Under the pieces are notes generated by a model. The model worked only from the letters and a program-made list of their open reading frames with translations. It did not search any database and was not told the DNA's origin. Of a stretch of DNA of 64,000 nt, positions 9,013-63,200 are shown piece by piece. How positions within the stretch are numbered: position 1 is the stretch's first letter; every line of letters begins with the position of its first letter. A program made the translations under genes and the position numbers. The DNA comes from Struthio camelus (Eukaryota; Chordata; Aves; Struthioniformes; Struthionidae): positions 7,243,906 to 7,307,905 of the forward strand of contig NC_090968.1 of the NCBI RefSeq assembly GCF_040807025.1. Direction: 5' to 3'.

Positions 9013-9462
9013 GCACCCTGTCCTGCTGCGGCGCCCTGTCCTGCTGCGGCACCCTGTCCCGCTGCAGCACCCTGTCCCGCTGCAGCACCCTGTCCCGCCA
9101 CGGCACCCTGTCCCGCTGCGGCACCCTGTCCCGCCGCGGCACCCTGTCCCGCCGCGGCACCCTGTCCCGCTGCGGCACCCTGTCCCGCTGCGGCGCCCTG
9201 TCCCGCCGCGGCACCCTGTCCCGCCGCGGCACCCTGTCCCGCCGCGGCGCCCTATCCCGCCGCGGCGCCCTATCCCGCCGCGGCACCCTGTCCCGCCGCG
9301 GCACCCTGTCCCGCCGCGGCACCCTGTCCTGCCGCGGCACCCTGTCCTGCCGCGGCACCCTGTCCTGCTGCGGCACCCTGTCCTGCCGTGGCACCCTGTC
9401 CCGCCGCGGCACCCTGTCCTGCCGCGGCGCCCTGTCCTGCCACGGTGCCCTATCCCACCGCG
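9013..9462. repeat. 18-bp minisatellite, 25 copies
   Basis: The consensus is GCACCCTGTCCCGCCGCG, repeated without indels for 450 bp (25 x 18). Variation is confined to a few positions: A/G at base 3, C/T at the transitions in CCG/CTG, and an occasional CCTATCCC. Because 18 is a multiple of three and no frame has a stop, long artificial ORFs (386 aa on +, 282 aa on -) run through it. The - strand is G-rich. Neighbouring sequence shows nothing gene-like. Confidence 0.97.
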
Positions 9463-11417
9463 GTGGCTGGACAGATCTCAAGGAAGCCTCGGGATCAAAT
9501 GTGGCTTCTGCTCGGCTCTGCTACCTGTGTGCATGCAGGAATGCAGGGGATGCGTGGCTGTGCAGCTCCTTGCGCTGCGCCGGCAGGGCACCCACATGGC
9601 CCTGGGCTCCAGGCACCACTGATGACGGTGGTTTCCTACATCAGCAATGTCTCTTCTGCCGGGTTCTGCCTCGTCCTCCAGCCGGGCTGTCTCCATCCTC
9701 CCCCGCAAGCCACGGGATGCTTTCCAGGGGGGAGCAGGTTTCATGTTCGGATGCCTCCACATCCCTTCCCAAACACTGTGCTCCGGGGGCTGCTTCCCCT
9801 GCGGGCAGGAGCTCAGGGCCGAGAGGCGACCAAGCCTGGTGGGCTGCGCAGCCACCCCTCTGCCGGCAAACAGGCAAGCTGAGACAGAGGACGAAGGAGC
9901 GATCCCAGGCTCCCAGCCTTCCTCAGCACCCTGGCTCACCGGAGGAAGCTCACGGGTGCTTTGGGTGGCTCCGAGCCCTCCGCAGGCAGCCGGTTTGTTA
10001 ACCGCGCTCAGCCCAAGCCAGGCCCATAAATGCACTGGGTTTTTTACAGGAGATTAAATTCAGAGCTTCCTGCTGAGGAAGCTGTGGGCACGTCGTAAAT
10101 CCTTCAGCAGATATGAATTTGCTCATGGCCCTGCCTCGCTGCAGGGGGGGATGAGCCCGCAGCGGCACGGGCGCCCCGCGGCGCCTGCCGCCCCGCATCG
10201 GGTCCCGCACGCGTGGTGCAATCCTGCTCCGTGCCGCAGCCTGGCAGGGCAGCAGGACAGGGCGGCGGGGTGCAACGGGGCCGAGCGGCCCTGAGCACGC
10301 GGAGACTGTCCTCCTGATGCGAAACCCCCCGCGCGTCCCTGCGCTGACCCCGGGGCTGCGGGGGGCGGCTGCCACGCACTCTGCAGAGCAGAGGCTTCCC
10401 GCCTGGCGCGCTCGGACGGCGCGGGCTTTGCATCATCCTGGCAGCCGGGCTGCTGATTCCCGGCTCCGAGCCCCGTGGGGACAAGGAAGGGGGCTTTGGG
10501 AGGCTCTCGCCCTCGGGGGGGCACAGCGGCGAGGCAGGCAGGGGCGAGACCGCGTCCTGCACGCGCCCTGGGTTCAGCCGTGCCCGATCCCGGGGAAGAC
10601 ATGGGCTGAGCCAGCCCGGCCAGGGCTCTGGCTGCAGCCGGCTCCTCTCTCCGGCGCAGCCTCCATCCCAGGCGAGTCCCTGCGTTTTTCTGGCACGCTC
10701 TGTCCCTTGGATGCCACCGGAGCCCAAGCAAAGGGCCCCAATTCCTGCAGTGTTTGAAGTGCTCCAGGTTAACCACAGTCTCCTGCCTGTCCAGTTCCCA
10801 GGCCGCCTGCTGCCCTGAGAAATCCTGGTACTCCCCAGGGGTGCAGCTCAACAGACTTCAATTTAGCCCCGTCCGGCGGCTGCAAGGCAGCCCGGGAAGG
10901 GGTCCGTGCTCCTCGCTGAGCGGGGATGCCAGCCCTGCCTCCCTGCTGCAGGAGGACACAGGACAGGAGTTATTTCCCAACTGCCTTGCCCTGCTCTTAA
11001 TAATAGATGGGTTAAAAAAGGCTAGCATGAGAGTGTTTGGCAAATCGGGCCCTTCTCCCTTCCAGACCGCCAAGGCAGCAAGTGTCATTTTCTCCTCTGC
11101 TTTTCCTCCCCATCGTTTGCAGCCGCAGTGGGCTTTTTGAGCTCGGATCGCTCTAGATAAGAATTCTGCAGCATTATTATGCAGATGAGTTTATGAAAGC
11201 CCCTAAGTGCTCCTTGCCTCTGCAGCGAGAGGGCTTAAAACAATGCGGCGTTTATTCCTCAGACGCGGAGGGAATGCTAAGTGGGAGCACCAGCAAAAGC
11301 GCGGGGACGAGCGACTCCCTGTGAGCGGGACGCAGGGGGCTGCCCCGCGCCGCTGCCCCAGCACCTCCGCTCCCCCCCCGCGGAGCCTGCAGGGTCCGGC
11401 CCTGCAGCTCCCGCCCG

Positions 11418-12320: not shown

Positions 12321-13798
12321 TAATTTCTCATATTAGACCAGCAAGCTGGAAAAACACCAGCCGCGCGTTCGGGTGTCCCTGCCTTCCTCCAAACAGGCAG
12401 CAAAGCCGTGCTGGGAGCAGGCTGAGCAGGACGGCTGCGGCCGCGACCGGGCCAGGGGCGCGATCCCGCAGGAGGGTGCCGGGGCGCCGCGGCCCCCCGC
12501 CAGCCCCGCGCGGTCTCTGGCAGCACCCGGCCTCGTCGCGTCCTGCCGCCTCCGGCCAGGCGCTGGAGCGGTCCTAAGAAACACAGGATAAAATTCCACT
12601 TTCGAGGGTTTTTGCTTTGTTGCAGTCTCTCCAAAGCCAGGCCGTTTTCGTGGAAAGTTTTGCTAAGATGCACAGATTCTTTTAAAGCAAATCTGGGTCT
12701 ATTTTCCAGTTTTCCATTGAAAAATCAGGCTGTTTTTCAAATACAAGGAGGCCCATTTCCAAGTGAAAATGGGCTAGGTTTTGGCCGGTTTGCCAAGAAA
12801 AGGGGGATTTTTGCCTCAAGAACATGCCAAAAGATTGTTTTTTCAAGTTTTCCTCTGCGAAAATTGCAGTTTCATTGAAATTGGAGGAACACGAGAGTGA
12901 AAATCCTCACCCAGTGCTGTCTGAAAGAGGAGCCGCGAGCGCGCGGCTCGTGCGGCCAGCAGCGCGGCCGCCCTCGGAGCCGGCCCCGACCCGCTGCTCC
13001 TCGCTGCGGACGCCCAGCAAAGCTCGCTCCGCGAGCCGGAGAGGCGGCGGCGCGGGGGAAGAGAGCTATCCGCCTTCCGAGGAGGCACGGCACCGGCCCT
13101 AAACCTGCCGCCTTCCGCCCCAAAACACCCGCTTGGGCAGCGAAGGCGAGCTAGCGGCGGCTGCAGCCTGGCCGGCGCCTCTCGCCCTCGGCGTATCTTG
13201 ACCCTGCTCTGAAGCATCCTGCCCGGGGAGGTGGGATGCGGGCCCGGGTTAGCCCCGCTCCGCTCCCCACGGCAGCGCCCAGGTGCTGTCCCAGCCTCGG
13301 TGCTTTCCGACTTCCCCCGGAGGCTGCTCCCGGCCGAGCGGGCGTCCCTGGGGGCGCGGGGCCGCGCTGCCCCCGGCCGGCTCTGGGCTGGCACGCGCCG
13401 CCCGGCTGCCGGGAGCGGGTGACAGCGGCGGCGCTCGTCTGACAGGCAGGCAGCGCTCAGCCGCATTTCGATGTGCTGTTAACAGCGGGCTGCCGCAGAG
13501 AGCGCTTGGCGACCGGCAGCAGCTTTGAATTATGATGAAAACCCCTGATAATAACAACCACCTGAGGGCGATTCGCTCCAGTCCTCGCGTCTTCTCGGAG
13601 ACCCGTGCCCAGCCGCCTGGGCGGGAGGAGGGCTGCGGGCGGCTCGCCGGCGCTGCGCCGGCAAGCGCGCTGCTCGGAGCTGCCCCTTTGCAGCTGGGCA
13701 GCGTGCTGGTGCGTGGCCCGACCCGGCCCCGACGCTCTCCGTCGCCTGGCGCCGAGTTGTCACCCGCGTTCCCCGTGCGGGCCACCAGCTCGCCCTGC

Positions 13799-14760
13799 GC
13801 CGTGCGCCGCTGCGCAAAGCTGTCCCGGAGCACCCCGAGCTCCGCAGGGGCTGGTCTTGCTCCTCCGGCTCTGCCGTGTGCCGCCGTGCAAAGCTGTCCC
13901 GGAGCACCCCGAGCTCCGCAGGGGCTGGTCTTGCTCCTCCGGCTCCGCCGTGCGCCGCCGTGCAAAGCTGTCCCGGAGCACCCCGAGCTCCGCAGGGGCT
14001 GGTCTTGCTCCTCCGGCTCCGCCGTGCGCTGCTGCGCAAAGCTGTCCCGGAGCACCCCGAGCTCCGCAGGGGCTGGTCTTGCTCCTCCGGCTCCGCCGTG
14101 CGCCGCCGCGCAAAGCTGTCCCGGAGCACCCCGAGCTCCGCAGGGGCTGGTCTTGCTCCTCCGGCTCCGCCGTGCGCTGCCGCGCAAAGCTGTCCCAGAG
14201 CACCCCGAGCTCCGCAGGAGCTGGTCTTGCTCCTCCGGCTCCGCCGTGCGCTGCCGCGCAAAGCTGTCCCGGAGCACCCCGAGCTCCGCAGGGGCTGGTC
14301 TTGCTCCTCCGGCTCCGCCGTGCACTGCTGCGCAAAGCTGTCCCGGAGCACCCCGAGCTCCGCAGGGGCTGGTCTTGCTCCTCCGGCTCCACCGTGCGCC
14401 GCCGCGCAAAGCTGTCCCGGAGCACCCCGAGCTCCGCAGGGGCTGGTCTTGCTCCTCCGGCTCCGCCGTGCGCCGCCGCGCAAAGCTGTCCCGGAGCACC
14501 CCGAGCTCCGCAGGGGCTGGTCTTGCTCCTCCGGCTCCGCCGTGCGCCGCCGTGCAAAGCTGTCCCGGAGCACCCCGAGCTCCGCAGGGGCTGGTCTTGC
14601 TCCTCCGGCTCCGCCGTGCGCCGCTGCGCAAAGCTGTCCCGGAGCACCCCGAGCTCCGCAGGGGCTGGTCTTGCTCCTCCGGCTCCGCCGTGCGCTGCTG
14701 CGCAAAGCTGTCCCGGAGCACCCCGAGCTCCGCAGGGGCTGGTCTTGCTCCTCCGGCTCC
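13799..14760. repeat. 74-bp minisatellite, exactly 13 copies
   Basis: The motif CACCCCGAGCTCC recurs at 13831 and then every 74 bp to 14719, 13 times, with no insertions or deletions (962 bp in all). Copies differ at a handful of sites, mostly CpG/TpG changes in the CCGCCGTGC part. Each copy holds the inverted repeat GGAGC-7 nt-GCTCC. No stop codon occurs in any of the six frames of the unit, so ORFs of 440-550 codons run through on both strands. These are artefacts of the repeat, not genes. Confidence 0.97.
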
Positions 14761-37549: not shown

Positions 37550-38055
37550 TCCTGGCTCCTAGCCCCATGGCATGGGGTCCCAGCCCTAGTGCACTGGGTC
37601 CCTGTCATAGTGATCTGGGTCCCAGCCCCATAGCATGGGGTGTCTGCATAATGCAGGAGGTCCCAGCCCCACAGCACAGGGTCCCTGCATAGTGCAGAGG
37701 TCCCTGTCATTTCGAGCCGGGTCCCAGCCCCACGGCATGACATCTAGCACAGGGGGTCCCAGCTCTATTGCACGGGTCCTAGCCCTAGTGCAGGGGTCTC
37801 AGCCCCATGGCATGGGGTCCCAGCCCTAGTGCAGGGGATCTCAGCCCCAATGCAGGGGGTCCTAGTCCCATGGCATGGGGTCCTAGCCCCACTGCAGGGG
37901 GTCCCAGTCCCACAGCATAGGGTCCCAGCCCCACTGCAGGGGATCCTAGCCCCAATGCAGGAGGTCCCAGTCCCATGGCATGGGGTCCCAGCCCTGGTGC
38001 AGAGGGTCCCAGCCCCAGCTCAGGAGGTCCCAGCCCCAGTGCAGGGGTTCCCAGC
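37550..38055. repeat. About 21-bp degenerate tandem repeat upstream of TACC1 exon 1a
   Basis: Variants of GGTCCCAGCCCCACTGCAGGG recur roughly 24 times with unit length 20-22 bp. Alternating versions contain CATGGCATGGGG or AGTGCAGGGG, suggesting a higher-order two-unit repeat. It ends abruptly at the CpG-island promoter of exon 1a. Confidence 0.9.
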
Positions 38056-38328
38056 CCGCCCCGAGGCGCAGGGTGCTGCAGGGCAGTAAGTGGGTGCACC
38101 TGGGTGCCCAGCATCCCCGGCCCGACCCTCGCCCCGTGGCTGAGCCGAGCGGAGCCGGGCCGGGCCGGACCGAGCCGCCCCCCCACCGCGGAGGCGGGGA
38201 CGGGGACGGGGACGGCCGGAGACGGCGGCGGGGCCGCGCCGCCCGCCGGGGCCGGCAGAGCGCGACGGCAGCAGCCCGGCCCGGCCCGGCCCGGGTCCCA
38301 CACAGCCCCGGCCCGGCCCGGCCCGGCC
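38056..38328 (+). promoter_or_regulatory. TACC1: CpG-island promoter and 5' UTR of TACC1 exon 1a
   Basis: The block just before the 38329 ATG is extremely CpG-rich, without a TATA box. It holds a run of GGGGAC repeats near 38197-38217 and CCCGG repeats up to the start codon, which could form stable 5' UTR structure. A donor-like GCA|GTAAGT at 38085 might mark an additional upstream non-coding exon. The transcription start cannot be placed from sequence. Confidence 0.55.
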
Positions 38329-47689: not shown

Positions 47690-47696
47690 GCCGGGC

Positions 47697-47985
47697 GCGG
47701 CTGCAGCGGGGAGGCCGGCGCGGAGCGGCGCGGAGCGGGGCGGCTGCAGCGGGGAGGCCGGAGCGGAGCGGCGCGGAGCGGAGCGGGGCGGCTGCAGCGG
47801 GGAGGCCGGAGCGGAGCGGCGCGGAGCGGAGCGGGGCGGCTGCAGCGGGGAGGCCGGAGCGGAGCGGCGCGGAGCGGAGCGGGGCGGCTGCAGCGGGGAG
47901 GCCGGAGCGGAGCGGCGCGGAGCGGAGCGGGGCGGCTGCAGCGGGGAGGCCGGAGCGGAGCGGCGCGGCTGCAGCGGGGCGGTGC
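47697..47985. repeat. 48-bp GC-box minisatellite in the TACC1 exon 1b promoter
   Basis: CTGCAGCGGGGAGGCC occurs at 47701, 47744, 47792, 47840, 47888 and 47936, with a last partial copy at 47969. Spacings are 43, 48, 48, 48, 48 and 33. The middle copies are almost identical. Each complete unit contains GGAGCGGAGCGG and GGGGCGG. Confidence 0.95.
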
Positions 47986-48135: not shown

Positions 48136-48293
48136 ATGGCGTTCAGCGCCTGGCAGATCCTCTCGCCGGTGCAGTGGGCCAAGTGGACGTGGTCCGCCGT
48201 GCGCGGCGGGGCCGCTGCTGGAGGTGAGGATGGTGGGGGAGAGCGAGGAGGAGAGGACGACTCGCAGGCGGAGAGCAAATCTCTGGGTTTCAG
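48136..48293 (+). CDS. TACC1: TACC1 exon 1b (long-isoform start)
   Basis: It encodes residues 1-52 plus two bases of codon 53, beginning MAFSAWQILSPVQWAKWTW, close to human TACC1. The ATG at 48136 is the one used in mammals; -3 is C and +4 is G, so the context is moderate. An acidic, glycine-rich stretch follows and then DSQAESKSLGF. The exon must end at 48293 (TTC AG) because only this gives AG+C=Ser and the conserved F-S-S-D-S-E-G junction. The donor is therefore GC rather than GT. In human TACC1 the first ~55 residues are reported to bind LSM7 and SNRPG, which suggests a role in RNA processing. Confidence 0.95.
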
Positions 48294-51200
48294 GCAAGTA
48301 CGCGGCATCCCTGCTTCGCGAGCTCTCGGGTGGTTGCGCTCGTCCCCTGCCCGTTAACCTCCCGGCCCCGCTGCCTTGCACGCGCGCTGGCACTCTTGGC
48401 ACGGCACGTCCTCTCGGGGACGGGGGCGGAAAGGCTCGGCGGTGGCGCTCCGTGTCCTGCCTGCGGCGCCCGCCCTGCATGCGGAGCTGCTCCCGCGAGC
48501 GTCATGGCTGTGCCGCGCGCGGGCCTGCCCCTGCGAGCCCGCCGTCCCCTCCGCTCCCCGCGCGCTGCGCTGCTCCGGCTTGCTTCCTCTGCAGCGCCGG
48601 GAACCTGCGTGGCTCCTGGGCGTTCAGCTCTGTGGATTTTGGGAACTGTTAGCGTTAGGGAAAGGCAGCGGGAACAGAGGGAGACTCTGGGCTCTCGGTG
48701 AAGATGCTAGCAGGCGTGGGGCAGGCAGATGGAGGCTTGTTTTCTGGACTTCCTAATGCTCCAGCCCTCTGGAGCTGTAGAGGAAGATGTGGGCTAGGCT
48801 GCCACGTCCGTGGAGGTCAGTAATGGGTGCTGAGAAAGACCGGGGTGACGGGGAGGTGTGACGAGAGCAATGTCGGGGGGAGACACCTGGGTGCTCCAGA
48901 CGCATGGCCCAGGAGCCGGGCTCGCTCGGCCGGGGCTGCGCAAGGGGATGCTTGTGATGTTGTTTCACCTTCTCTACCTTTTCCGTTTGCTAGCGTGGCC
49001 TGCTGGAAACGGAAGAGCAGCAGCCGCAGGATGCCTTCTCCGGGTCGGCCGGTCCGGCCCAGGAGCCGGCCTGGCTGGATGTGTAGGGCATGTGAAGGAT
49101 GTCGGAGCTAGCCAGGAAAGCGGTAATTCCTCACTGTTTTCCCCCCCTCGGCAGCTCGGACTCCGAAGGTAATTTTGAGACCCCCGAAGCAGAAACACCG
49201 ATCCGCTCGCCCCTAAAGGAGTTCTGCGAGCCATCGCTGGGATCGCGAGAGCCGGAGGCTGGGACCCAAGGTAAGGCGCAAGCGTGCATCTTCTGCTTTT
49301 CGGTTTTCTGCTCCGGATGCAGAAAAGCGGGGTGGGGTCAGGGAGGAGAAGTTGCTTGTGTTGAATAATGCCTGCTGCATTTTTTGTGGTTAATGGTCTG
49401 GATGGTTCAAATGCCAGTACTGGGGGCTGTGTGTGCTCTGCAAAGGCTGTTCTTTAACTGACGTTAAATGCTGACTTTACTGAATCATTTTGGAGGGGAG
49501 GGGGCTGTACTGCAGGCTTGAAAGAATCGGTTGGGCTCCCCTCGGCTCTCGCCTGTGCAGCCTGAAATTATCATGAGGCCGTTTTGCAATCACCGGTCAC
49601 GCTCTCCTGCTGTCCCCACGCCGAGATAGGGGGTGAGCGTGCGCGAGGCTGCAGAGGGCAGAGATCCCTAAGTCGGGTTTGGGGAGCCGCCCCGGCAGAG
49701 GCGGTGCCCGGAGAGGCAGGGCCTGCAGCCGGCCGGGCTGCGATGGATTGATCTAGAGGAAGAGAGGGTTTTGTTGAGTCATTTTGTCTTTTAAACTGCC
49801 CTCTCCAACTTCCCCCTCAGACCTTGCCGGGCTCAGTAATACCTCCCGCTGCCTCCGGGTGTCGGAGGGCGGGCGGCGGGAGCTGGCTTGCGCATGCTTC
49901 GCCTGCCACTTGCGGTAGGAGAGACCTGCCCTTGTCACAAGAGCTGACGCGATGCTGCGTTCTGCTGTCGGCAGCCGAGCTTTCATCGCACAGATCCTTT
50001 TTCCCTAGAGTTAGTAGCCTGGCCTCTTCCCTGCGTATCTGCTGTTAAATATGTGAAAACCTGAGACTGCTGAACCCCATTACTGGAGAAATTGCCAGGG
50101 ACCTTCGGAAAGCCCAGGGGATTTCCTTTGCCCCCAGGAGCCCGTGCGGTAGCCGCTTTATCTGTGCGTCTCGCCACAGGCTGCTGCGTCTCTGTGCGCG
50201 ACTCCCCGTTAACCCTTGGCCTTTCTGAGCACCACCTCCCTCCCCTTTGGCTTTATCCCCCCCTTGGAGGGGTCTCGCAGCTGGCAGCACGGAGGGGCCG
50301 GCCCCTGGGGCGGGAGCCGGTTCTCGTGCCGCAGCGACGAGGCTCCGAAGCTCTGGCATCCCTAGCGAGCGCAGAGGTTATCGGAGGCAGGGCTCCGGGG
50401 AGGGGACGCCCCCTCCTTCCATCCGCTCTTCCTGCAGAGCAGGATGACTGGGCAGCGTCAGGACGCGGAGACGTCCGTAAACGCCCAGGAGCGTCGGCCG
50501 GAGGGAGGCCTGCCCCAGGCGCCGGCGGCATCTCCGGGGCCGGGAGCCCCCGGGCGGGTGCCCTGAGCCGCGCTCTGCCCCGGGCTGCAGGGCAGCCCCT
50601 GCTCTGTTCGACTTTGGGCATCTCTCCAACGCTCATAACAGCGCCCGGTCGCTTACCAGCACCCAGCGGCTTCCTGGAGCACCCCGGGTTTCGGGGATGC
50701 GCTCGCTCGCTCAGACCGCACCCCGGGACCTCATTACCAGGACAATTCCCTTGCAGGAATTAAGATCATTTCTGCAAGAGCTTCTGTTCGAGAAAGTGCT
50801 TTGCTTCAGACCCTGGGGAGTTACTGTCCCAAAAGTCTGAGAAAGTATGTTTTGTGTGCGTGTTTCCTAGGAAGAGCAGTTCCTAAAAGCAGTGGCCGAA
50901 GCCAGGACCCAGCGCACGAGTGGGCTGGCCAGCAGTGGGCCGCGGGCACGGCACGCGCGCGTTACCGGGCCGCGCAGCCGAAGGCAGGGTGCTCCCCAGG
51001 GCGGGCTGCTTTCCTGCTCGCTTTATGGAGAGCTAAACATTAGAGCAAATAGAAGCTTCTCCAGCACCAGAAACGCAGGAGTGGTTGCACACCCCGCTCG
51101 GTCCCTTCCTTGCCTGGGGGACTGGGGTACGTCCTTCTTCTTCAACGGGAGCTGCCCCGGTGACGGAGGTGATTAGTGAGAGATGGCCCCCAGGCTAGGG

Positions 51201-54200: not shown

Positions 54201-57200
54201 CTTGAGCAATGCAGCAAGTGTAATGAAGTTGCCTATGTGGCCTGTTAAAGAGGTTTCCTGATTCCTAGTGATGGAAACGCCTGGCAAGGGCTGCCTCGAA
54301 GAGCGTTTGCTGGCTGCCCTCCAAGTATGTTTCCACTGGATTTGTGTTTGCTGATGCATTTTGTGAGGCAGAAGATAACGTCTGTCCAGAGTTTTCTTGC
54401 AGTCTCGGGGAGTGCGCAGCCCCCCATGATTCATTTCTGTGGCTTTTAGCATCCTAAAGATCGCTTATGCAAACCACGAGCCATCAGCTGAGTCAGGGCT
54501 GTTGGCTCGGTGTCCCAGATTAGCCTGGGAGCCAGATATTTGCCTGATTCACTTTCCTCCTCCTGCCAGCCTGCGACTCGCTCCGTCACCAGCAAACACA
54601 GGCTGGTTGCAGATGCTCTGCGATAGAAACAACCTCTCGAGGGAGATGTGCCTGGAGGGGCCGGTGCCTGGCTCAGCCCAGGAGCGCGCTGCCTGCCATG
54701 CACCGGCTCAGCCGCCCCCCTGCAAAACCAGCAAGCGTTTCGCGTGACTTCCCTGCCGAGGCCGTCGCGCTGGCGCACGAGAGCTAGTTCGCAGCCTGGA
54801 TACGGCCTGGGAAGAGGGGCGAGCACATTTCCCCCGGGCACGCTCTGTATTTGCAGTCCCCTGTGCTGCTGCCCATTTTCAAACCGGTTCAGTCCTTGGG
54901 GGAGCAGCGTTGAGCTCTGCCCCAGAGGACCCGGCTGTGCTGGGTGCATCCCGCCAGGGCGATGCCGGGAGGACTGCGTGCTCCCCGGTGGGTGCTGAGC
55001 ACCCCAAAGTCCCGCTCTGCATCGTCCCGGGAGCCCGCGCACGTGTCGCTCGCTGGGACGGGAGGAGCAGAGCTGCGGACGGGCCGGGGGAGCCTCTCCG
55101 GGCGTTTTCCTCCCCTGCCTTGGCGCACCCTGGCCGAGCGGCCGGCGCTGGGTGCATGTCGCTTTCAAGATGCCTCAGTGGCTAAGGAGCTTCGCCGTCC
55201 GTCCCCTGACAGAGAAGAGGAGATTAAACAGTAAAAGGATTTAGTGGCAGGGATTGGAGTAACAGTGATTAAGTCATGGATCAGGATTTGCGATTAAGAA
55301 ACTATGGCAGCAGCGCGGTGAGCCTGGTAGGAAGAGCCGGGCGGGATCCCTGCGGCAGGGGAGCGGGCAGCGAGCAGGGGGCTTGGGCCGGGCTGCAGCC
55401 GGGACCGGCTCTGCGGGAACCTCGGGGCTCCCGGGCGGCGAGCGGGGCCGCTGGGTGAACGCTGCCTCTCCTCTCCCGCAGGCCTTTTTCCTGGGATCGC
55501 TCCTAGGGGGTCTCGTTGCTCTGCTGTGTCTCCCCTCCCCGTGCCAAACACATGCAGGTTTTTTGCTTTCCCTGCGCTTTGGCTCCTGGCATTTATGCAT
55601 CGCAGGGATGTTTCGTGAGGGAGCGCATCAGGCGACTGCTGTATCTAGAGCACGCAGTTAAAATTTTAACGAGAGACCCTTCTGACGGCCCACGTGCCTC
55701 CGCTGGCGGTGGAGCGGTGCAGGCAAGGGCTGTCTGTGCCGCGCTCGTCTCGGCCTGCAGTTCTGGGATTGCAACCAATTCCCGCGCAGGCAGTTGCCAG
55801 GAGGATGGAGAACCCTTTCAAGGGGAAAGGGGAGCTTAGAGAAACATGCAGCCTGTGAAAGGTTTGGACAGTTCGGCCTCGCTCGGCATCCTCGTTTGCA
55901 GGAGGCACGCGAGGCGGGCGGCCGCTGCGCCTGCCGGGACCGACGCGGCTCCGCGGGAGAGCCGGGGCTGGGATGCCGGAGGGGAGCGGCCGTGCTGCCC
56001 GGCCAGCTCCTGCACCGAGGTGTGCTGCCTTGCATTTCACTCGGTGATTTTTAACTTTCCGTCGAGGCGAGCTGCGGCTCTCACTGTCGTTGCCGTTCCC
56101 CGCCGGGACACGAGGGTTTCCTGCCCCGGGAGGAGCAGCCCCGCGGGCGTGCAGCCCTCACGGCCTTGCAGAGGCGTTGCGATTGCAAAACCCCTCTGGT
56201 GCATCAGGCGCCCCGGGTGGGAGCGCGTCCGGGGGAGAGGAAGGACATAAATGGTGATGTTCGTAGCTGCCAGCATGGTGCAGAGCGATGCTTCCCTGCA
56301 GGGGGGCCCCCGGCGCGGTGATTTATGTGTGCTTTCTCCACTGTGTCACGGGCTTCGAATTTTACAGGCAGTGCTTGAAGCCGGGGTTAAACAGTCACGG
56401 CAGCAGCTGGGGAGGCTGAGCTCTGGGTCGGTCCCATCAATCTGGTCCTGGGAGAGCCACGAGACGGGGAGGGACAGCCACGTGCAGAGCCAGGTGCCCG
56501 CACGGGGTGCCGTCGGGACGGCGGTGCGCAGCGGGCATGGTTTTAATGCGCTGCTTTTATCTTTGTAGAGCTAAGTGGCCACGATGACCTGCGGGTAGTG
56601 GAAGGCTCCAGGGAGACCTCGCACGAGCAGCGCTCCGAGGATGAGGCTCGGCCGCTGTGCGGAGCCCCTCGCGCCAGCGCGGATGCTGCAGCGGAGACCT
56701 GCCCCGACGGCAGCGAAGAGCCGGCCCTGACGCAGCGCCCGGCCGAAGCTCAGCCTCCGGGCGTTCCTGCAGCCGCCGGGAGAGGGACCGAGGCCGGCTG
56801 CTTGGCCGTGCCCGCTGCCGAGCCGGCCGATGCGCGCGGAGCCGCCCGGGAGCGGGTCATGTCGGGAGAGGGGCTGGCCGACGCGGGGCCGCCGGCTGAA
56901 GCTTTTGCCCAGGAGTCCTCGCCCGGCCGGAGCAAACTCAGGAAAGGGAAACCAGCGGCCCCTGGGAGGAAAACGGAGGAAAACCTAGAGCCTGGCGCAG
57001 CCGATGAGGAGAGCCCGGTCCCCGAAGCCTCCTCCGGCTGCAGCGCCGATGAGTACGACGAGAGCGTGCGTGCCTTCGTGGTGGGGGGCGCCGAGCTGCA
57101 GAGCTCCCCGCCGGCAGCCCCGTGCAGCGCCGTGCGCCCCGGCGGCGAGCCGGCCCGCGAGGGCAAAGCGCCGTCTCAGAAACGGGAGCCCGATGTCACG

Positions 57201-60200
57201 GAGGGGGCGGAGGGCGCCGAGGCCAGGAAAGCCGCGCCGAAGAAAGGCAGCAGGATCCCAGCCAGCAAGCTGACGCCCAAAAGGCAGAGAGAGCCCGCGC
57301 CGAAAGCCGCCGAGGATGGGCAGAGGGCTGCCGAGCTGCCCCCTCCCGGGGGCTCCTCCAGGATGGATCCCAGCCAGTGGGACAACCCGGATTTCAACCC
57401 CTTCAGCAGCAGCTCGGCTCTGCAGAACTCGCCAACGCTGCCCAAGGCGTCTTACCGGCTCGACCCCGATCGCGGTGACTCCGCGGATCCCTTCAAGGCC
57501 CCCAAGACCCTCGCCAGCGCCGCCGCCGACTCCTGCCCCGCGGCGGAGAACAGCCTCAACGAAATCCTCGAGTCTCAGACGCTGGAGGTGCAGGATGAGC
57601 TCGCAAAGGGCAGAGACTCCCCGAAGAAGCCCCGGTCGCGCTTGATAACGTGAGTGCGGGTGCGCGCTGAGCGGGCGGCCGGCAGCCCCCCAGCTCCTCC
57701 GCGGTTGGGGATATGGCAGTGATGCTCCGCTCTCCCCCAGTGTCTTCTGAGCCAGCCTAAAATACCAACACGCACTGTAGGCTCCTGTGTTTTTGCTGCT
57801 GCCCTGGTTTTTATCCGTCCTCATGGTAGCTGCATCTTTGCCGGCAGATCTTGCTGCTCGGGAACCGACGGGTCGAGACGAGCCGGGGTCCCGTAGCGGT
57901 GCCGGTGCTCGGTGCGCAGAGCCCCGCGCAGGGTCCCAGGCCGTGGGAGGGGAGGGCTGCCCCCGCGAGTCTGGGCCAGCGCCTACTTGCAGGAGTCGCT
58001 GCAAAGCCTCTTTGGAAAAATCGCTCGAGATCCCGGCTTGCGCGGCTCAGCGCGCCTGCAGTCGGATCGCTGGGTCGGAGCAAACCTTCGTAGTGCAGGC
58101 GTGAGCCCGCAGGGGCTTTCCGGGCGCACCAAAGGGTCTGTGACTCTTCTGCAGGTTGCAGGCCCACGTCTGTTCAATCAGATACTGCTGGCGCGTTTTG
58201 TGAGCTGCCGCAGAACTTCCCCTTTTATAACTGAAGAAGAGAATAAAGGTTAAACAGGCTGATCGTGGTTGCTTTTATCGCATTTGCAGAGGCAATGGGG
58301 AGCTTGTTGTCCCTTGCAGAACTATTTCAGTGCATGTGGGATTCTTTAAGTGCATATTTAGTTCCTGAACCATGCTATTTAAAACCACCATGTAAAGGGT
58401 GACATTTCCCAATGCCTCCTGGGAATGCAGGTGCCATTACACTCTTCCTCTGGGAACAGGTTTAATGAATAAACCTGATTTTCTTGATATTTCACCTACT
58501 GCATCACAAATGCCATCCAGACCGCATCTGGGCAGTACTGAAGTCTCAACCTCGCTTTTTAAGAGCTTTAAATCGTAAAATGTAAAATCCCAACTGCTGA
58601 GACAGAGTTGGTTCTTCCTGCCCTCTGCAGGGTCTCTGGACAGGCAAGTGAAGCAGAGGGGAATATTGCATAAGGGAATTGCCCAGCAAATTTTGGGGTC
58701 CTTCCACTGTAATTTGTGATTGCATTTAACACTTGTAATTGGAACTAATTGAAAGCAAAAGCAGGAATCTCGATACGAATTTTTAGAGGGAGTCAGCGTT
58801 CCTGCGCGTGACCCTGAAGGCAGCAAGAGCTGGCAGCGAGTGGAGGTTTCAGGCTCTGCTCATCACCTCGGAGCAGCACGAGCTGTTCCGGGCACTCGCC
58901 TCCCCCGCGATTTGGGTTTTGATTGAATGCTCGTTCTTCCTCTCGCAACCCTAAATGCAGAATCAGAACATCTTTTATCTATGTGTTCTTTCCAAAAGAC
59001 AGAGCTGTGCAATTCATTGTGTTTCTCCAGATGAGAGTTGATATCCAGGTCTTTTCACATGCTTTTCTTCTCTCCATCTGTCTGTCTCTTTCCTGTCTAT
59101 TTTTTGGTGCATCAGGACTACTGAACAAGTGAAATTTCTCTGTTTTCTGTTGTAAGTACTCTCTTCTGTTTTTCTTTCCTCTTTTGTTTTGTTGGGTTTT
59201 GTTCTCTCTCTCTCAGTGGGTGTGTGTTGGCCCCACGACTCTCCATGGCATGCAGGCTCCTTCTTGCCTTTCGACTCCTGCTCTCTGCTGTCTGATTTGT
59301 GTCCTCTGCGCCTCTCGGAGTGTGTTTCGTGGGACAGCTTAGCCTTGCAACTGCCTGGGCGCGAGGGAGCGAGAGGAGGCGAGAGTCGCACTCGAGGCGT
59401 GTGCCTGTGCTTGCTCTCACAGCATGCCGACTTGCAATGCGTTTTGATGATGTAAAAGTACTTGAAATCAGTGCCTCGGCTAGCGGGGAAAGCAGGTTTC
59501 TGTGCCATCCAGATCCTTGCAAAGATGGGTGGATTTTAGCAGTCCGAAAGTGAGGATGTCTTTTACCCGCACCCATGCAAAACCACCTGGGGAACCGGGG
59601 GCTGCGGAGGGGTAGGTGGAGCAGATCCAGGGGCAAAGGAGCTGCTGGTCCTTCAGCCGTGGCTCCAGATCGTGTCAGAGGAGCTTTGCCCTCGCAGTGC
59701 TGCAGACAGGACTCTCTTTTTAGCCCTTTTCCCCCCGCCTTGTGAAAGGGGACCTGCTCTTGCGGCTGGCGAGCGGCTGGCGGCGGGAGGGGGCCTGGGC
59801 TTGCGCGGGCAGGCCGGCGGCTGGGCAGCGCTGCGGGTCGGGGTGGGTCCGGCTGCACCGCCTGGGAGAGGCGGCGGGTGCCGGGCGCGCTCGGGGGCTG
59901 CGGATGCGGAGCCCGGGCGGTCCGTCCGTCCTCCCTTTCCTCTCCCCCATCCCCGCGAGCTGTTATCGTGGTGCTGGTGGGGGAGACACAGCAGCTACCA
60001 GATGGTGTGATAACACCCTCTCCAGGAGACCGTGCCGTGATCGTCCCTAGGAACAGAGAGATTGCGAAGGATGTGGCGAGCTGTGGTTTAGCTGCTTGCG
60101 TTAGGGCGCGATGGAGAAAAATGAAGGCGAGAGGGATTTTGTTCAGGCTGACGCCGGTGCGCGTGTTAGCACGCACATAAAATTTCCTTGTGCCTCGTTG

Positions 60201-63200
60201 TGCTCCGCCGGAGCACGCGCGTGGTGGCATGGCGAGGCCGGAGAGGGAAAAGGGTGGGGAGGCGATCGCCAAAGCTCGCCGCGAGCGCGTCCGGGCTCCT
60301 GCCATCGGCTCTGCAGTGGTGGAGCCTCAAACCCGGAGGAGGAGACCTCTTCCCCCCGTCATCTGTAGCGGGCTGCCTTCAGCCTAGCAAACGTTTGCCT
60401 TCCGGGAAGTTGAGGCCTGGCAGAGAGCAGCGGGAGGTTGCTGCTGTGGGGTGAGAGGGTGGTGACGCGTGGGCTCGTGCCTGGGTGCGGGGACAGCTCC
60501 GCTCGCGTGCGAGAGGCGAGTGCCTCGTGCGCATCGTCTCGTCTGCTGAGGCCGGGAGCCCGCCGGCTCGGCCCCGCAGCACGCCCCTTGCCTGGAGGAG
60601 CCCGGGCGGAAGCCGAGCGAAGGCCCGAAGCGATGCAGAGCGGGGAGAGGCGGGAGCTGGCGGCCTCGTCCTTCGCTCAGCCCCGAGCGGGGCCGTAAGC
60701 AGGAGCAGCGGGTACCGCTAAGGACGGCTTGTCCGGGCAGCTGCGGGAGCCAGGAGGGTCTCCGCGGGCTCTCTGAGAAACCCGTGCGAGGCGGCGGCCG
60801 TGCCGCAGCCCGGCCGGAGGGTGGTCTCGTCCCTCGCCGCTGCGGCCGAGCTCCCCCGGGCGACGCGTTTCGGGGCCCCAGGTTAAAGACCCTGAGAGCC
60901 TCCTCGCGGGAGGGCGCCCGGCCGCAGGATGCCCTGCAAGGGGAGCCTGAGCCTCTCCGATCTGCAAGGCTCTCCTCCTGGAGACGGCGTTTGCGTCGTG
61001 GCGGAGAGCGCGTTTAAAGCGCAGAGGAGCGACGTGGCTCAGAGCTGCAAGCGGCGCAGTTATCCCCAGCCAGGGCACCAGCGTGCGCTCAGAGCTCGGG
61101 ATGCCGTCCCGCCGGATGCACGGGGCGAGCACGGAGCGAGGGAAACCTTTCTTCCAGACTCCTTGGCAATCGCCTTTCTCGCCGCCCGTGCCTCGCGCCT
61201 GTTCTCGGTCCCTTTCCTTCGACGGGAATAAAGGTCTCGGAGATGAAAGGGGTTGGCGTGTCGCAGTGTGTTTTCTTCGCCCGTTCCTTCCGCCCGCGCC
61301 CGGCGCTTGCTCTGCCTCGGCGTTCGGCTGGCGAGCGGCTCGGCTGCGCGCAGGGTGCAACGCTAGCGCTGGGGCTGCCTCCCCGCTTGGGCTGCGCCGC
61401 GCGCCCCCCGCCCGCCCCCGGCCCCGGCCCGCGCGCCCCGGCCGCTCAGGGCTGCTTCTGTCTCCCGCAGGAGCGGCTGCAAGGTGAAGAGGTACGAGGC
61501 GCAGGCGCTGGTGCTGGACGTCGGCGCGCAGGTGCGTGGAGCCGGCGGCGGCGGCACGCGCTTCTGCCGAGCCCGTCCCGCTGGATGATGAGCTCCCGGG
61601 GCGCTTTCCCGGCCGACCGTCCGGGTAACCCGGCGGCCTGATCGCCTCCGATTAGCTCAGCCCCGCTTAACCGCATGCCTTGATCCTGCAGGACGAAGGG
61701 GGGCTGATCTCGGAAATCCCCGCTGTCGCGAATCGGGACGGGCACGCCACCGATGAGGAGAAGCTGGCCTCCACCACCTCCGCGCAGAAAGCGGCCGGGC
61801 CGGAGAGGAAGGGGGAGCCGGAGGATGACCTGGAGTACTTCGAGTGCTCGAACGTGCCCGTGCCGGCAGCCAGGCACGGCGCGGAGGCAGGTGAGGAGCC
61901 GCCTGGGCGCCCGGCCGCCCCGCAGCCGCCGGCGCCGCCCGCGCCCCGCTGCCGCAGCAGCAGCTCCAGCTCCTCTCCTCTCCCCCGGCGGGGCTGACGG
62001 CCGCCGTGCCTGCGTGCTCGCTCCCCGGCCCGGGCTGGGTTTGCTCGGCCTCCTTCCGCGGGCAGCGCTCTGCCGACGGACCCGAGGGCCTCGCGCCGGC
62101 TGCCGGCTCTTGCCGGGGCTGGGGCAGCGCGAGCCCCGTCCCGTCCCGCACGAGGCTCCCGGCCGCCCGCCCGCCCGCCGGCACCCTGCTCACGCCGCTT
62201 TTGTCGTCCTCATCCAGCGGGGCGAGGCGGCGGCTTACGCTTTTCCCGAGGTGCAGGCAAGACTGTTCAGAGTAACAAAAACCTGCATCAGAATTCAGGT
62301 CTGGTATTGAAAGCTTCTGTCCTGCTTGTTTCTCGCTCGCTGGGTGTGAGCGAGCAGAGGCAGGACAGGCGGATTTGGGTTATAGTAGTTAGAAGAAGTG
62401 TTAATATCTTGGGGGGGAAAAAGAAAAAAAAAGCTTTGCGTGCTCAAAGCACCGCAACACCATTGATGCAGCAGGATGTGGCCACGCTGGCGGCCCGCGA
62501 CCTCCCGCCGGGCGCGCAGAGCCTCCCCGCAGGGCCGTCGTGCCGTGGCACCCTGAAGCACCGCGGCCGGGGTTAATGCAGCTCTCCGGGTTGCTGTGGA
62601 AGATCTCTGCTGATGCTCTGGGTGGTATTGCGCTGTCTGTCTGCTACGTAATTTGCTGCTCTGACCAATCCATTAAAAAATAATTAAAAGCCAGGCAACC
62701 CGACATGTAATCAATATTGAAGTTATAGGTGCAAATGACAGAAGCCACCACACTGAAGATTTGCAGCTCTCTGCTGTGCATTTATTCATTAATCATTTCT
62801 CTGGAATGCTGCGAGGAGCTGCAGAGCTCTCAGGAGGTGTTTTGTCCTTTGCAAAACAGTCCTTTGCCTCTCAAAGGAGGAAAAGGTCGGTAGTTAACTG
62901 AGGGTCCGGGAGGCTGTATTTGCTGCGGCCGCCCTCGGTGGGCCGAGCAGGCGTGGACGGGCTCGGCGCCCGCCGTGGTGATGGAGCTGGCACGCAGCCG
63001 CGGCGCGGGCGCAAGGCGGACGGCAGCTCTGGGCGCGGAGCCTTGCGCTGCCTCCTTCCTTTCGTGGCTGTGTCCTAGGAGCGCGCGGTTCTTGGCCCAG
63101 TTTGCGGATGAATAATGGATCATGTTCCCAGTTGTTTAGGAGTTGAGGTTCATAAATTATATCCCAAGTTATGTGAGATGGCAGGGTGTCCGGAGCACGG

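Follow-up and report, generated by a model that had tools for sequence, protein, structure and literature searches.

Alternative exons of 36 bp are known from two human TACC genes. In TACC1, such an exon was described from brain cDNA (Line et al. 2002, PMC2375403); the sections of that report dealing with it describe reverse transcription PCR (RT-PCR) in which the exon was strong in brain and gastric cancer, with traces in lung and colon and none detected in normal stomach or the remaining normal tissues, the skipping form being universal. The same sections record its inclusion in 3 of 20 gastric cancers and not in adjacent tissue. In TACC2, a nanopore study lists rex17 (Ex9-10), a frame-preserving 36-bp exon marked as rare, between exons of 1,312 and 61 bp (PMC8087818); alternative splicing of TACC3 lacked firm evidence in a 2005 paper (PMC1175095). 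A further point of reference is the class of exons dependent on SRRM3/4, which a passage of PMC8797185 characterizes by a long AG exclusion zone, a UGC near the 3' splice site, and a long tract with UCUC. Microexon length is set strictly at 3-27 nt in the definition of one paper (PMC7935315) and more widely at up to 51 nt in that of another (PMC12064062). Here we consider the ostrich (Struthio camelus) counterpart of these exons, which lies in a stretch of 64,000 nt (assembly GCF_040807025.1, contig NC_090968.1, positions 7,243,906 to 7,307,905 of the forward strand; hereafter the window) where a sequence-only reading had proposed a 36-nt in-frame exon of TACC1.

The gene in the window is TACC1, since residues 1-557 of an annotated ostrich TACC1 protein (isoform X2, P0001), which carries the Pfam domain TACC_C, match the window letter for letter in six blocks. 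Exon 3 stops at 57649, two bases into a codon, and exon 4 starts at 61471. Between them, bases 59116-59151 read GACTACTGAACAAGTGAAATTTCTCTGTTTTCTGTT, with ..TTTTTTGGTGCATCAG as the 5' neighbor and GTAAGT as the 3' neighbor. Inclusion of these bases gives ..PKKPRSRLIT-TTEQVKFLCFLL-SGCKVKRYEAQ.., and their skipping gives ..RLITSGCKVKR... The coordinates, length, acceptor, phase match to the neighboring exons, and product are all as first proposed. However, the peptide does not fall just before the NRDGHATDEEK region, as had been thought, but 33 residues upstream of it. Human TACC1 isoform 8 has exactly TTEQVKFLCFLL between RLIT and SGCKVKK. Further, the flanking-primer amplicons given in the pertinent part of PMC2375403 are 119 and 155 bp, and the equivalent ostrich interval is likewise 119/155. 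From this length and interval we infer that the exon of 2002 is the isoform 8 insert, with the proviso that the amplicon spans two junctions. The ostrich exon thus shares with its human counterpart (clone Ga55/AY039239, KIAA1103; isoform 8) the gene, the interval, the length, and, with isoform 8, the 12 residues at the junction; it differs in species, the brain expression having been measured in human. We regard the 36 nt as almost certainly a real exon and the orthologue of the human one, and probably the same as exon 4a, whose skipping in TACC1 appears in a listing of a later paper (PMC8665927).

The exon itself is known, being already described in human, with its product annotated in many birds; it was called hidden in the sequence-only reading, but it is present in human isoform 8 and in many bird models. 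A second paper of 2002 by Line et al. reportedly deals with altered TACC1 splicing in gastric cancer. In the open-access literature we found no discussion of how nearly invariant the peptide is across bony vertebrates or of its pairing with TACC2; supplements of microexon surveys, in whose lists TACC1 or TACC2 may figure, and most subscription papers lay outside this scope, and we make no claim that these points are unpublished. By analogy with the human pattern, the exon is very probably brain-enriched in birds too. Of the two sites of use that had been suggested, neurons and muscle, the first agrees with the brain-strong human RT-PCR, whereas muscle is unsupported: as far as the expression section of the 2002 report goes, heart was in the panel (skeletal muscle being absent from it) but was not reported positive.

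The splice sites alone do not carry this identification. Scores were computed from approximate weight matrices. The donor 9-mer, GTT|GTAAGT, has T in place of G at -1, so that of the "perfect" donor only the intronic half is perfect; because the exon ends in GTT, the score is a modest 6.1, against 9.3 for exon 4 and 7.6 for exon 3. The acceptor, which had been called strong, is a usable site with a middling score of 8.7, between those of exon 4 (10.6) and exon 5 (7.4). When frame-compatible candidates of 15-60 nt with both scores at least equal to those of the 36-nt exon were counted on both strands of the 64 kb, two were found on the plus strand (the exon itself and another borrowing the exon 4 acceptor) and two on the minus strand; in intron 3 the exon is the sole such candidate. 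Splice scores, or the signals first noticed taken singly, are insufficient to prove the exon. Judged by sequence comparison, it is the conservation of the peptide that lifts the exon far above chance and settles its reality.

This conservation emerged from three protein searches with 914, 1,235, and 861 matches, of which the 120 best were taken in each case, giving 344 distinct proteins; in the second, scoring was limited to the candidates sharing most words. The insert pattern was found in 42 of 120, 20 of 120, and 104 of 104 new proteins in turn; because matches in the third search were ranked by the insert, its figure is no inclusion rate. Altogether 166 of the 344 retrieved proteins have the insert, 149 of them as exactly TTEQVKFLCFLL and the others with differences at one to three residues. 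Among the carriers are many birds, turtles, Alligator sinensis, a gecko and further lizards, marsupials, many placentals (with human isoforms 8 and X9), eels, salmonids, and percomorphs, so that from teleosts to human many vertebrates have annotated TACC1 proteins with this insert at this junction. According to a parse based on the flanks, 166 of the 344 have the insert, 165 are skips of the TACC1 type, 12 are TACC2 proteins, and one has an unrelated stretch (P0089, Egretta); apart from this last, none of the 344 has a divergent replacement insert. In rainbow trout, isoform X1 less the 12 residues is exactly isoform X2 (P0129, P0169). In 77 unique contexts, E3, F7, L8, C9, and L11 are constant, and L12 is L in 76; the entropy of the insert columns is at most 0.59 bits, whereas that of flanking columns rises to more than 2 bits. 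The search pattern itself requires parts of the motif, and the invariance is therefore possibly overstated. Amphibians are not represented in the retrieved protein lists. Several percomorph records (e.g., P0133, P0134, and P0141) have an insert of 14 residues, such as PRTSEQVKFLCFLL, as if the acceptor had shifted by 6 nt. In P0111 (Ficedula) the reading continues past the usual insert end into FPWQGPQGG; this and the unrelated junction stretch of P0089 are probably model errors or splice-site changes.

The sister exon of TACC2 offers a second line of evidence. All 12 retrieved TACC2 proteins have MVEDVMSVCSLF between KKKKTPLKT and DTFRVKKSPKRS, though they came from a query holding the TACC1 insert, and 12 of 12 is thus no inclusion rate. 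The TACC2 junction PLKT / DTFRVKK corresponds to RLIT / SGCKVKK of TACC1, and exon 4 of TACC1 has the same length, 61 nt, as the exon after the 36-bp exon of TACC2. The two inserts have E3, V5, C9, and L11 in common (4 of 12 identical), the 33-residue context containing 13 identities. Their BLOSUM62 score of 17 is matched by 0.43% of shuffles of the TACC2 insert (p ~0.004), and among the 2,982 12-mers of three TACC2 proteins it is reached by the insert alone, once per protein. A corresponding equality of exon 5 was considered and rejected: the ostrich exon has 199 nt against 202 nt in TACC2, and only the 36- and 61-nt lengths are equal. In its position between a large exon and a 61-nt exon, its length, and these four residues, the ostrich exon thus resembles human rex17; it differs in eight of the 12 residues and in that the TACC2 insert is without LxxLL, and the nanopore study gives rex17 as rare among intronic-promoter transcripts (PMC8087818). 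The simplest reading of this sequence resemblance is that the two exons have a common origin before the split of the paralogues. That split is dated to the early vertebrate genome duplications.

Most of what the sequence-only reading had claimed is thereby upheld. A 12-residue TACC2 insert at the matching junction, described there with E, V, C, and L in the same places, corresponds to a real 36-bp exon and to all 12 TACC2 proteins. At the protein level conservation extends to birds and reptiles, and the TACC2 insert aligns with that of TACC1. An ancient regulated exon pair adding a short hydrophobic peptide agrees with the near-invariant insert of bony-vertebrate carriers, the TACC2 exon, and the brain-strong inclusion in human. 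The observation is confirmed, and the interpretation is supported and largely right. That this is a conserved optional exon of TACC1, in both its identity and its brain-type inclusion, is in our judgment likely.

The flanks of the exon have the layout published for SRRM3/4-dependent exons: an AG-free zone of 65 nt (against 32, 35, 19, 29, and 26 nt for exons 2 to 6), a UCUC-rich tract, and UGC at -8. The A of the branch-point-like TTCAC lies 59 nt 5' of the exon. In PTB-type tetramers these flanks are the densest of the 64 kb: with both strands counted, 56 of 127,448 positions reach their count, all of them at 59075-59170; in plain pyrimidine fraction one other place, at about 16.1 kb on the minus strand (numbered on the reversed sequence), equals them. 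The proposed signature of a TGC beside the acceptor and UCUCU-rich flanks accordingly survives as regards the exceptional flanks and the overall layout, whereas the TGC is undiagnostic (see below). The neural-microexon hallmarks survive likewise as regards layout and the wider limit of 51 nt, but 36 nt exceeds the strict range of 3-27 nt. Like the SRRM3/4-dependent neural microexons, the exon is frame-preserving, conserved, brain-enriched (in human), and provided with a long AG-free zone, a UCUC-rich tract, and UGC near the acceptor; unlike them it is longer than 27 nt, and the likeness is one of sequence layout. On balance, this layout suggests control by SRRM3/4 together with PTBP1. RBFOX control was considered and set aside as weak, the motifs at +97 and +271 being GCATG and not TGCATG.

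In non-neural cells, then, repression of the PTB type through the CU-rich flanks would keep the exon out, and in neurons the loss of PTBP1, together with the action of SRRM3/4 on the UGC and the long pyrimidine tract, would bring it in. Inclusion would place a short, helix-prone, hydrophobic 12-mer in a linker of predicted disorder before the coiled coil, five residues past a basic KKxK stretch. There it may act as a docking motif for a partner, which would alter the partners or the location of TACC1, and of TACC2 by way of the sister exon, in neurons. The AlphaFold model of a turtle TACC1 inclusion isoform (65 aligned proteins; mean predicted local distance difference test, pLDDT, 55) is mostly disordered outside the coiled coil; a helix (477-489) covers the insert, which spans 477-488 in the alignment numbering, and the insert block has a pLDDT of 63, as compared with 38-52 just upstream and 41 downstream. 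In TACC2 (12 similar sequences, mean pLDDT 45), helices at 509-513 and 516-519 lie on the insert (507-518); no other helix of at least four residues precedes the coiled-coil region starting at 752. These models are compatible with a helix that forms on binding, and with no more than that. A helical docking motif switched on in brain is our tentative choice among the functions considered, and we prefer it, with interference with nuclear import as its main rival, because the strict import pattern is found in a minority of the TACC1 relatives and LxxLL is not found in TACC2.

The main rival is a switch of nuclear import: the insert would split a bipartite nuclear localization signal (NLS) lying over the junction of exons 3 and 4 (KK-10 residues-KVKR) and thereby hold neuronal TACC1 and TACC2 in the cytoplasm. 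The ostrich pattern KK-PRSRLITSGC-KVKRY indeed exists only in the skipping form and is lost on inclusion, and the TACC2 context behaves likewise, with a bipartite pattern when the insert is removed and none when it is present. TACC1 is, moreover, described as nuclear with the receptor RAR, as affecting the localization of TR, and as found elsewhere too (PMC2822774). Across vertebrates, however, a junction-spanning bipartite NLS is not conserved, despite its presence in ostrich: only 35 of 87 unique contexts from amniotes and 14 of 78 from fish retain the strict pattern (KK-X10-12, with three of five basic), and one amniote context (P0069) was read at the wrong place. A single cluster of the KKxK type, in contrast, is kept in 75 of the 87 and 76 of the 78, and a second bipartite match further upstream in ostrich is unaffected by the insert. 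A plain spacer, furthermore, would need no invariant sequence. We regard the import switch as unlikely.

It is more doubtful that the insert serves as an LxxLL nuclear-receptor box (LCFLL) in a protein known as a coregulator of such receptors. The ostrich segment translated from exons 3-5 has no other LxxLL, and LCFLL itself is there on inclusion only; its leucines 8 and 11 are invariant and its last is L in all but one of the unique contexts, and TACC1 binds TR, RAR, and other receptors (PMC2822774). Yet such a motif arises easily in hydrophobic peptides, and in the same paper the clone that binds receptors, Y11, begins only at residue 491 and consists mostly of the coiled coil, with unliganded receptors preferred. 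Nor can the box be a function common to both paralogues, because the TACC2 insert has VCSLF. Lipid modification of C9, which stands among hydrophobic residues and could anchor neuronal TACC1 and TACC2 to membranes, appears similarly improbable: the cysteine is constant in 77 of 77 unique TACC1 contexts (the search pattern requires it) and in 12 of 12 TACC2 inserts, but its hydrophobic neighbors are equally invariant, and a binding helix fits as well. A chance pseudo-exon without function has a negligible probability and is rejected: such splice scores do arise a few times per 64 kb, but the peptide is conserved from fish to human and has a TACC2 counterpart, and RT-PCR had already settled the case for the orthologous human exon.

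Several observations nevertheless weigh against the docking motif or against neural regulation of a conserved exon. The listed ostrich protein P0001, representing a cluster of four members, is the skipping isoform, without the insert, and many of the carrier records are predicted isoforms. The sole shark record retrieved (P0132) is without the insert. The strength of the splice sites is unexceptional, and TGC is common: over the two strands of the window, 145 of the 478 YAGs rich in pyrimidines have one within 11 nt. PMC5282733 names TACC1 in connection with MBNL1 and mRNA stability only. As to the models, that of TACC1 has similar features elsewhere, namely two further helices (11-22 and 382-386), three blocks outside the coiled coil with a pLDDT of 60, 66, and 63, and an N-terminus with 75, while the pLDDT at the TACC2 insert helices, ~38, is very low. 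Finally, an amphipathic helix was rejected for the TACC1 insert, whose hydrophobic moment is reached by 9,892 of 20,000 shuffles, and is marginal for TACC2 (863 of 20,000).

The coordinates of the exon, its neighbors, and its flanking signals are collected in Table 1. Elsewhere in the gene, intron 1 is apparently of the GC-AG type, exon 1 ending in ..TTTCAG followed by GCAAGT (48286-48299), and the annotated ostrich protein fits this junction. A GC-rich tandem repeat of 48 bp in six copies (47692-47982) ends about 150 bases 5' of the TACC1 start codon and possibly belongs to a promoter or 5' untranslated region. Other repeats of the window are a 74-bp tandem repeat at 13798-14760 (13 copies, 96% matches) and GC-rich minisatellites at 9013-9463 (18-bp unit, 25 copies) and 37750-38057 (21-bp unit, ~15 copies). 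The window has no Rfam match at the gathering threshold, and of its 39 stop-to-stop frames of at least 250 residues, the ten compared with Pfam gave no match.

Table 1. Positions of the TACC1 cassette exon, its flanking signals, and the other exons in the window
Feature	Position	Strand	Description	Basis
Cassette exon of TACC1	59116..59151	+	36 nt, phase 2 to phase 2, in frame; insert TTEQVKFLCFLL	Sequence and translation, protein matches, human 36-bp alternative exon
3' splice-site region	59049..59115	+	AG-free zone, long UCUC-rich tract, UGC, CAG acceptor, branch-point-like TTCAC (A at 59057)	Sequence; layout compared with a passage of PMC8797185
Donor and downstream region	59152..59271	+	GTAAGT and CU-rich stretch; GCATG at 59248 and, beyond, at 59422, a weak RBFOX-type match	Sequence
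TACC1 exon 1, coding part from start codon	48136..48293	+		P0001 match and sequence
TACC1 exon 2	49155..49270	+		P0001 match and sequence
TACC1 exon 3, upstream flanking exon	56569..57649	+	End ..PKKPRSRLI-T, donor GTGAGT	P0001 residues 92-452 exact; boundaries from sequence
TACC1 exon 4, downstream flanking exon	61471..61531	+	61 nt, SGCKVKRYEAQALVLDVGAQ	P0001 residues 453-472 exact
TACC1 exon 5, long form	61692..61890	+	199 nt, holds NRDGHATDEEK	P0001 residues 473-539 exact; donor GTGAGG at 61891 from sequence

More generally, it is possible, and we suggest it tentatively, that the exons of both paralogues descend from one optional exon of a single ancestral gene that preceded the early vertebrate genome duplications. 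Both would have retained a helical docking motif (E-x-V-x-x-L/V-C-x-L-L/F), which neurons would turn on simultaneously in the two paralogues, thereby coupling an ancient binding partner to the TACC-dependent microtubule or nuclear-receptor functions only in brain. TACC1 has been linked to microtubules, nuclear receptors, and cancer. The persistence of a near-constant 12-mer from fish to human in an otherwise fast-changing linker, together with the paired exon of TACC2, speaks for a single specific binding partner.

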